A stretch of 64,000 nucleotides of DNA, from NCBI GenBank assembly GCA_944376335.1, contig CALWCH010000004.1, positions 42,487 to 106,486 of the forward strand. The letters are read 5' to 3'. Source of the DNA: an uncultured Clostridia bacterium. GTDB taxonomy: Bacteria > Bacillota > Clostridia > Christensenellales > Borkfalkiaceae. Position numbers and translations under genes: made by a program. The notes below the pieces were generated by a model. The model did no database searches and was not told the DNA's origin. It was given only the letters and a program-made list of their open reading frames with translations. Positions 5,085 through 46,906 of the stretch are shown here, piece after piece; the stretch's first letter is position 1; every line of letters begins with the position of its first letter.

Positions 5085-5756
5085 TCAGAAGAGAATGGGG
5101 GAGAGGAGCAGCTCCTCATAGGACGTGATAAAGAGGTCGGCAGTCGTTTTCAGCGCCTCTTCGTCACGGCGGGAGCCCTCGTCAAACACGGCGGCGGTAT
5201 AAAACCCGCCCGCCTTCGCGGCCCTCACGGCGGGGAGGATGTCCTCAAACACCGCACACGTTTGCGGTTCTGCTCCGATGCGCCGCGCCGCTTCCAAATA
5301 GACGTCGGGGTGCTCCTTGCCGCGCTCCACCTCGCACACCGTCACGGCGGCGGAAAAGAGCGTATCGATTTGATTATATCTGAGCGCAGGCAGGAAGATC
5401 TGTTTGTCCGAAGAGGTCGCAATGGCAAGCTTGACGCCCGCCGCATGCAGTATTTTTAGGTATTCCTTCGCATACGGCTTCAAGGGCATGCTCGCGTACG
5501 CGGCGCGGATGTAGGCGAGCCACTCCGCCATGATGTCCTCGGGGCTTTCGCCGAGCGAATAGCGCGCCTTTGTGTAGAGGGCGGCCTCTTCGAGGTGCAT
5601 GAGCTTGACGGCCTCGGTATAATCGGGCGTGAGGGGGATGCCTCTTCGGGTGAGAAAGGCGCGGTCGGCGTCATCCCAAACGCCGAGGGAATCAAAGAGG
5701 GTGCCGTCGAGGTCAAACACTGCCGCCTGCATATGATATTGCGTGCTTCGCTGCAT
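5085..5756 (-). CDS. HAD family phosphatase (subfamily IA, phosphoglucomutase-like)
   Basis: This HAD hydrolase of about 223 residues has the nucleophile motif FDLDGTL near residue 14, motif II IATSSD, a lysine in ERGKEHPDVY, and the acidic motif VFEDILPAV. Phosphorylated small molecules are the expected substrates; the exact one cannot be read from sequence. The ATG at 5754-5756 is chosen because GGAGG lies just upstream; a longer reading frame from 5789 lacks such a site. It is the first gene of the operon with the acyltransferase and gltS. Confidence 0.85.
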   Translation of the reverse strand: MQRSTQYHMQAAVFDLDGTLFDSLGVWDDADRAFLTRRGIPLTPDYTEAVKLMHLEEAALYTKARYSLGESPEDIMAEWLAYIRAAYASMPLKPYAKEYLKILHAAGVKLAIATSSDKQIFLPALRYNQIDTLFSAAVTVCEVERGKEHPDVYLEAARRIGAEPQTCAVFEDILPAVRAAKAGGFYTAAVFDEGSRRDEEALKTTADLFITSYEELLLSPILF

Positions 5757-45930: not shown

Positions 45931-45991
45931 CTTTCCCGCCGAAGCCGACCATGAGAACGAAATCGGCATTATATGTCATATTCCATAACTA

Positions 45992-46020
45992 TTTTACACA
46001 AATCGACGATTTTTGTAAAA
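45992..46020 (+). promoter_or_regulatory. 29-bp near-perfect palindrome upstream of the Spo0A-like gene
   Basis: TTTTACACAAATCG (45992-46005), central A, CGATTTTTGTAAAA (46007-46020); one mismatch between arms. It lies 29 bp upstream of the -35 box. AT-rich arms ending in TTTTACA/TGTAAAA suggest a binding site for a dimeric regulator (inference). A further TTTTTTACA lies at 46032-46040. Confidence 0.6.
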
Positions 46021-46048
46021 AAACAAATGACTTTTTTACAAAAATAGC

Positions 46049-46077
46049 TTTACAACGGCAAAAAGTTAAATTATAAT
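46049..46077 (+). promoter_or_regulatory. promoter of the Spo0A-like gene
   Basis: TTTACA (46049-46054) and TATAAT (46072-46077) are 17 bp apart. Confidence 0.82.
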
Positions 46078-46106: not shown

Positions 46107-46862
46107 ATGAAGACGCAGCGGGTGTTGATCCTGGAAAGCAACGAAGTTTTTGCAAAGGAACTCAAGGAACAAATCGCCTCTCGCACGGGCTGGGAGGTAT
46201 GCGGCGTTTCCGCAAGCGGCGAGGAAGGCATCGCCCTTTTGAAGAGCGAAGAGCCCGACATCGTGATCTTAAGCCTCTTTTTGAAGGGGTTCGACGGCTT
46301 CACGGTGATGGAAGAGGCGCGCCGCTCGGAAAAGAAGTGCGCCTTCATCGTGATGGGCAACTTTTCCGACGACAAGATCATCAACCGCGCCATCGCGCTC
46401 GGGGCGCGGTACTACCTCATGAAGCCCGTCGAGGCGTCCGTCGTCGCGGAGCGGGCGGCGGAAGTCGCGGGCGAGCCCTTAAAGCGCGAGAGCCTCGAGC
46501 GCCGCCGCGCCAATACGCTGGATGAGCGCATCAGCAACATCTTCATCTCCATCGGCATCCCGCCCCACATCAAGGGGTATGCCTATCTTCGCGAGGGCAT
46601 CAAGATGGCGGTCGAGGACCCGCACGTCATCAACAACGTCACGAAGGGCCTCTATCCCGTCATCGGGGAGAAATTCCAAACGTCTGCAAGCAAGGTGGAG
46701 CGCGCCATCCGCCACGCCATCGAGGTCGCCTGGAACCGCGGCCGCATCGACGCCGTCAACGCCATCTTCGGCGCGCGCGTCTACATCGGTACCGAAAAGC
46801 CCACCAACAGCGAATTCATCGCGCTCGTCGCCGATAAGCTCATCCTCGAGAACATGGGCTGA
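46107..46862 (+). CDS. spo0A: Spo0A homologue with a degenerate receiver domain
   Basis: This 251-residue response-regulator-type protein has a C-terminal Spo0A DNA-binding domain that is clearly conserved (IGIPPHIKGYAYLREGI, SKVERAIRHAIEVAWNRG, KPTNSEFIALVADKL). The receiver domain aligns without gaps near the key sites to Bacillus Spo0A, but Asp10-Asp11 are Glu10-Ser11, the phosphoacceptor Asp56 is Ser56 (VILSLFLKG), and the Thr switch is Gly (VMGNF). Only the Lys in LMKPVE remains. It is therefore unlikely to be activated by phosphorelay. GGGGG precedes the ATG at 46107. It stands alone, not next to spoIVB. It could be a constitutive or ligand-controlled regulator. Confidence 0.9.
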   Translation: MKTQRVLILESNEVFAKELKEQIASRTGWEVCGVSASGEEGIALLKSEEPDIVILSLFLKGFDGFTVMEEARRSEKKCAFIVMGNFSDDKIINRAIALGARYYLMKPVEASVVAERAAEVAGEPLKRESLERRRANTLDERISNIFISIGIPPHIKGYAYLREGIKMAVEDPHVINNVTKGLYPVIGEKFQTSASKVERAIRHAIEVAWNRGRIDAVNAIFGARVYIGTEKPTNSEFIALVADKLILENMG

Positions 46863-46881: not shown

Positions 46882-46906
46882 GGCCGCCTCTTTTGGCGGC
46901 CTTTTT
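46882..46906 (+). terminator. terminator of the Spo0A-like gene
   Basis: GGCCGCC (46882-46888), TCTTTT, GGCGGCC (46895-46901), then TTTTT. Confidence 0.82.

Follow-up and report, generated by a model that had tools for sequence, protein, structure and literature searches.

The window, a 64,000-nucleotide stretch of a contig from an uncultured Clostridia bacterium, carries a spo0A-like gene, with the following features in and around it:

45977..46048, plus strand, conserved operator-like array 5′ of the −35 element, with a degenerate 0A-like box (ATCGACG) and TTTGTA/TACAAA repeats
46049..46077, plus strand, sigma-A-type promoter of spo0A: −35 TTTACA (46049–46054), 17-bp spacer, −10 TATAAT (46072–46077)
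46107..46862, plus strand, spo0A-like coding sequence, an intact 251-codon reading frame (251 amino acids)
46134..46139, plus strand, codons 10–11, GAA AGC (Glu-Ser), replacing the acidic metal-binding pair
46272..46274, plus strand, codon 56, AGC (Ser), the former phospho-acceptor site at the end of predicted strand β3
46356..46373, plus strand, codons 84–89 (G-N-F-S-D-D), with Gly (GGC, codon 84) at the Thr/Ser switch
46422..46424, plus strand, codon 106, AAG (Lys), the pocket lysine, kept
46882..46906, plus strand, likely intrinsic terminator, GGCCGCC-TCTTTT-GGCGGCC-TTTTT, read by eye

As the terminator lies directly 3′ of spo0A, the gene looks monocistronic. Its product consists of a receiver (residues ~4–120), a linker (~121–135) and a Spo0A_C DNA-binding domain (142–245). 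It scores above the curated NCBIfam cut-off for TIGR02875 (spore_0_A; 240.7 bits against 200), matches the Pfam model for Spo0A_C in full (PF08769, positions 1–104 of 104, 134.4 bits) and passes the Pfam cut-off for a receiver (PF00072, 56.6 bits), which confirms an earlier note, made from the letters alone, that had identified a Spo0A homologue with a conserved DNA-binding domain. In the models studied, activation of Spo0A is phosphorylation. The note had also reported Ser at position 56, Glu-Ser at 10–11, Gly at the Thr switch and a retained Lys, and the codons (AGC, GAA-AGC, GGC and AAG) read exactly so; its summary that three of four catalytic features are lost is fair, with the caveat that Glu10 remains acidic. 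None of the marks of a canonical phospho-regulator (Asp56, an acidic pair at 10/11, a Thr/Ser switch) is present, and the protein has the defining property of an aspartate-less receiver (ALR), a receiver fold without the phospho-Asp. Codon 103 is TAC, so the window retains Tyr103, the aromatic partner of the Thr/Ser switch; most relatives have Tyr or Phe at this position, and four members of the genus g5 have Cys. The codons, as read, show that the residues for normal aspartyl phosphorylation are absent from this receiver.

Among close pairs in the cluster of related loci, the receiver had a median dN/dS of 0.097 (122 pair values) and the DNA-binding domain one of 0.031 (125 pair values); these figures are descriptive, as the pairs share sequences and are not independent, and two were counted twice. 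Both domains are under purifying selection. A pseudogene was considered and rejected on the intact reading frame and a dN/dS of about 0.1. AlphaFold2, run with 74 aligned sequences, returned a regular (βα)5 receiver and a helical C-terminal domain with a mean pLDDT of 90, and the receiver fold is predicted to persist. Confidence in the linker is low and the pTM is 0.53, so the mutual placement of the two domains is not predicted. The first Foldseek match to the model was full-length DesR (4ldz), and the top ten also included the Spo0A C-domain (1fc3/1lq1) and the Spo0A receiver (1qmp/5wq0).

The genome to which the window belongs (1.75 Mb, 44 contigs, 86.4% complete) is placed by NCBI in Clostridia incertae sedis, and its GTDB family is Borkfalkiaceae; Borkfalkiaceae are tied to Christensenellales in the available text of PMC11536998. 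The genomes compared with it are mostly or wholly metagenome bins. Because the Spo0A proteins of Candidatus Gallimonas merdae, merdigallinarum, caecicola and faecavium, at 73–76% identity to that of the window, fall within the range of same-genus genomes (69–78%), with other genera at 63% or less among the matches listed, the genus is probably Candidatus Gallimonas.

The earlier note had left two options, a lineage that runs Spo0A without phosphorylation or a second copy rewired to another role. For the latter, a canonical Spo0A would do the normal job elsewhere in the genome, and two facts lend it some room: this genome is just 86% complete, and single relatives with several copies exist (G145, G060, L090, G066 and G402). 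The search for a second spo0A nevertheless found none, the window's genome having one Spo0A_C match. Of 61 genus genomes, 54 have at least one match and 53 have exactly one, and a match is present in 34 of the 35 near-complete genomes (at least 90% complete, at most 5% contaminated). Moreover, all 25 genus sequences read, the best-scoring matches listed, have Ser56. These single-copy counts make a rewired second copy very improbable for the window, even though single relatives do carry extras.

Those extras take several forms. G402 has a second, weak Spo0A_C match (48.9 bits, G402:C2:121187-121480), G066 has three matches, G145 has two nearly equal ones on two contigs, and G060 also has more than one copy. 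In L090, two spo0A reading frames (near 5132 and 10000) lie about 5 kb apart, with Ser at residue 56 in one and Asn in the other. Conversely, G111, a genus member that is 96% complete, has SpoIVA, SpoIIE-like and sigF-type matches and no Spo0A_C match, either through an assembly gap or through real loss.

Ser56 was found in 100 of the 112 Spo0A reading frames from 111 loci (L001–L111, which include the window itself as L001 and L002 and list some contigs twice, under G and public names). On the earlier note's question of whether Ser56 is fixed, the answer is yes for the genus sample (25/25 sequences from 24 genomes, the window's included; best-scoring matches listed). Nor do close relatives have Asp, which the note had named as evidence against its claim: the four closest named relatives (L032–L035, 89–97% identical) all have Ser56. 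A more distant cluster member, L089 (74%), has Asp56, an apparent reversal in which the rest of the pocket is Glu-Ser-Gly. A sequencing, assembly or frame error has a negligible probability, given that the same residues recur in assemblies from several studies, and was rejected on the cluster and genus counts above.

Beyond the genus, the picture becomes more varied. Across the family, 150 sequences from 148 genomes and 16 genera (the best-scoring Spo0A_C matches listed, with genera g13 and g17 absent) have Gly (46), Ser (43), Asp (26), Glu (23), Asn (11) or Trp (1) at residue 56. The full triad of two acids and Asp at 10/11/56 was found in none of these 150 best-scoring sequences, of which four (two from g7, two from g16) stop short of residues 10/11 and have Glu or Gly at 56. 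In the 26 with Asp56, residues 10–11 are Q-D, Q-E, E-S, E-N, E-G, E-A, E-R, V-S or S-N. Other families of the order have Asp56 in 29/29 sequences and the full triad in 26/29, with pocket columns that are mostly Asp-Asp-Asp-Ser-Lys (30 loci were fetched; L181, truncated and lacking a receiver, was dropped). On a tree built by a quick method (179 rows, pocket columns left out, 67 weak forks), residue 56 changed at least 32 times, at least 8 of them between Asp and non-Asp. We read this turnover as a sign that the phospho-acceptor constraint has been lost in the family and that genera settle on pockets of their own. As far as these alignments go, loss of the phospho-site is old and family-wide, yet not uniform, as 26 of the 150 best-scoring sequences listed keep Asp56. 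With the phospho-residues lost, the role of on-switch would not fall to kinase-driven Spo0A~P in this lineage or in the greater part of the family.

A receiver without phospho-Asp may still be a switch. In this alternative the pocket is repurposed to sense a ligand or a different modification, for instance Ser56 phosphorylation by a Ser/Thr kinase or a small molecule bound by E10, S56, N85, D88/D89 and K106; ALRs that are constitutive, or responsive to ligands or other modifications, are described in the available text of PMC4395418. In the window and L032–L105, mean identity is 65% over the receiver and 90% over the DNA-binding domain, and receiver positions conserved at 95% or more include E10, S56, G84, N85, D88, D89, Y103 and K106, among others. 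All of these except Y103 belong to the proposed pocket, and conservation so far above the receiver mean looks as if a specific new pocket were under selection. However, different genera have G, S, E, N, D or W at residue 56 and L089 places Asp56 in a Glu-Ser-Gly pocket, so a family-wide role for Ser56 as an essential site of modification is improbable. Among the nine window neighbours tested, moreover, none was a constant neighbour of spo0A and thus a possible partner (within 3 kb of spo0A, an ABC-F gene occurs at 33 of 80 loci and TrmL at 4 of 80). We regard a repurposed pocket as possible, while leaning against it.

The 0A box has the consensus TGTCGAA (reverse, TTCGACA). We compared 79 stretches upstream of spo0A, each of 260 bp or less, from the window and named loci, a few of them from other genera. 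An exact box was present in 48 of them, against a base-shuffled mean of 2.6 and maximum of 7, and a −35/−10 pair like that of the window lies downstream of the box position in 73. Most control windows at the same loci gave 0–6 box matches; an adjoining window gave 10/77 and one overlapping the promoter 45/78. Many relatives have an exact TTCGACA in the array that matches 45977..46048, and the window and L032–L035 have no exact box upstream of spo0A. Strong conservation also marks the TTTGTA/TACAAA repeats of this array (45977–46048), which sit between the −35 and the site of the 0A box, some of them at 10-bp intervals; they might be degenerate 0A boxes or the sites of another regulator.

Upstream of spoIIE, an exact 0A box was found at 19 of 26 readable loci (30 were fetched; no placement was possible for L185, L190, L196 and L206). 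In 17 of the 19, it lies at −74 to −87 relative to the start codon. In the window's genome this box is at G000:C35:5797, 49 bp before a TATAAT. Control counts were 4/90 for windows in mid-locus and 76/1,245 for windows across whole loci, promoters included. No exact box was found upstream of spoIIA in six genomes (seven rows, with the window's genome twice). Because the DNA-binding domain and the 0A boxes are both conserved, Spo0A most likely still acts directly, as a transcription factor, on spo0A and spoIIE, and it appears to have kept its control of both genes despite the lost phospho-site.

An exact box also precedes 17 of 29 Asp56 spo0A genes of other families and, judged by this distribution, the spo0A box is ancestral. 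Its presence in Asp56 relatives makes it uninformative on phosphorylation. We considered whether dense autoregulatory boxes were a new gain compensating for the lost Asp, which the same 17/29 count does not support.

The kinase complement of the window's genome is small. It has four PF00072 receivers, of which three, in open frames of 218–238 amino acids, are beside a kinase on contigs C19, C1 and C3 (the first two pairs read directly, the third by coordinates) and the fourth is Spo0A. Spo0F, raised in the earlier note, was sought only indirectly, through receivers, and none of the four PF00072 matches of this 86%-complete genome is a stand-alone, Spo0F-like receiver. The orphan kinases that the note had also raised came down to one HisKA frame, C2:120905, with no receiver match on its contig; it looks truncated and seems to lack a normal N terminus. 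Of the 31 genus genomes, 11 have a single HisKA match and one lacks any (five and one, respectively, of the 19 near-complete genomes). Across the family, counts range from 0 to 7, with seven of the 201 genomes at zero. Three genomes combine a full-scoring Spo0A and SpoIVA with no HisKA match: G022 (96% complete), G052 (95%) and G178 (93%, 4% contaminated); residue 56 is Glu in G022 and G178. All of these counts cover HisKA-type kinases, and the C3 kinase of the window's genome indicates that kinases outside this type exist.

Both the phosphorelay and the direct-kinase form of the Spo0 pathway are treated in the available text of PMC6136694. The absence of a stand-alone Spo0F-like receiver from the window's genome is like the clostridial direct-kinase pathway, in which Spo0A would be the direct target of orphan histidine kinases. 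Unlike that pathway, the target Asp is missing here, and the one orphan kinase frame is truncated-looking. That frame, together with the retained Glu10 and Lys106, counts against a phosphorylation-independent Spo0A.

Genes of the sporulation programme are widespread. SpoIVA (TIGR02836) was matched in 190 of 201 family genomes, 162 of them above the cut-off, and in 29/29 of the genus sample. SpoIIE-type matches occur in all 31 genus genomes and are strong in 30, the match in G409 (E = 1e-4) being to the phosphatase domain only; the control search for SpoIIE also matched Thermotoga. SigF-type matches likewise occur in 31/31 and are strong in 30 (over 250 bits, sigF/sigG-like); the model also matches 11 of 14 controls, where it presumably detects other sigma factors. 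All SpoIIE and SigF/G matches are below the NCBIfam cut-offs. Read directly, the window's genome has spoIIAA-spoIIAB-sigF, a sigE-like gene, spoIIE and spoIVA, named by homology and by eye. No α/β-type SASP (PF00269) was matched in any of the 31 genus genomes, B. subtilis being the sole control to match; despite SpoIVA and the sigF-type genes, the SASPs are either diverged or the spore is unusual.

The absence of a SASP match and an interrupted sigG in the window's assembly leave sporulation itself uncertain. The pathway could be degenerate, forming no resistant spores, with Spo0A and the early genes serving another developmental or stationary-phase role, and the receiver would have changed once its trigger was unneeded. 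The small genomes (0.9–2.1 Mb in the genus samples) and the split sigG of G398 and G400 fit this as well, and SASPs went unmatched in all 31 genus genomes. The retention of SpoIVA and of strong SpoIIE-like and sigF/sigG-like matches in nearly every genus genome, the 0A boxes kept at spoIIE, a receiver dN/dS of 0.10, which is not free decay, and an uninterrupted sigG junction that is also in the window's sample all argue the other way. On this evidence we judge a degenerate pathway unlikely.

The reading that we favour, and hold to be probable, is that this is a true, single Spo0A orthologue whose phospho-residues are gone, and that it is phosphorylation-independent, wired to sporulation and gated by abundance, by a new input into the receiver, or by both. 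The receiver would be fixed in, or readily enter, a dimer-competent state, and unmodified Spo0A would bind its own boxes, probably as a dimer, without phosphorylation. Its activity would be set by abundance through the autoregulated, box-dense spo0A promoter, and the remodelled E10/S11/S56/G84/K106 pocket might receive a non-aspartyl input, be it from a partner protein, from a ligand or through Ser modification. The earlier note's interpretation is partly supported: its second-copy option is not, and its other option, that the lineage may run Spo0A without phosphorylation, is favoured by the family-wide site loss, the sporulation genes, the 0A boxes and the small kinase set. More tentatively, and with somewhat less than even confidence, we propose that the family has abandoned the phosphorylation switch, that Spo0A decides by autoregulated concentration or a ligand, in some members without HisKA kinases, and that the programme is of an endospore type lacking classical SASPs.

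The protein resembles Bacillus and Clostridium Spo0A (TIGR02875; 1qmp, 1lq1) in its length, its receiver and Spo0A_C domains, its pocket lysine and aromatic Tyr103, and in the 0A boxes that precede spo0A and spoIIE in the cluster. It differs in lacking Asp56 and the 10/11 acidic pair, in its Gly switch and in having few or no candidate kinases. It may be compared with the ALR regulators RitR and ChxR, in that the receiver fold is kept, the phospho-Asp is replaced (by Glu, Asn, Ser or Gly) and activity is presumed to be constitutive or to follow an alternative input; unlike these, it would be a sporulation master regulator across a family in which residue 56 is still turning over. For Asp-to-Glu mutants, the sole context in which the available text of PMC4395418 mentions Spo0A (with reference to Green et al. 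1991), it states that the change alone often fails to activate a receiver and that further mutations are needed. The open-licence literature, as far as its available text goes, yielded no earlier report of an aspartate-less Spo0A.

The finding is real and larger than first stated: the Spo0A proteins of a family are largely aspartate-less, maintained by selection and still connected to spo0A and spoIIE. Activation of Spo0A is presented as the universal decision point of endospore formation in the available text of PMC11115286, and in this Clostridia gut family the textbook on-switch seems to have been replaced. As the site is gone and the regulator, its boxes and the sporulation genes are kept, whether the decision runs on Spo0A concentration alone becomes testable. 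The presence of spo0A is the first criterion for the sporulation potential of bins, Borkfalkiaceae included, in the available text of PMC11536998; in metagenome bins, such presence is silent on how, or whether, the switch works.

The interruption of sigG seems to lie in a conserved region around PMILGEIKRYL, dividing the gene in the window's assembly between C5:51762-52250 (L269) and C11:6-284 (L268), and the C-terminal half is preceded by a recombinase-like reading frame, identified by eye. On C11, the N-terminal half crosses the junction intact and has, at the contig end, a 77-bp exact overlap with the C5 half, consistent with the presence of both interrupted and uninterrupted forms in the sample. 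Elements are described in sigK, spsM, gerE and yabG, against none found within sigG in the literature as available. SpoIVA, which matches at E values of about 1e-150 to 1e-205 in most of the family, is weak (about 1e-60 to 1e-85) in g10 and some g8 genomes (for example, G010, G028, G056, G073 and G097), where the genes are possibly split or truncated.
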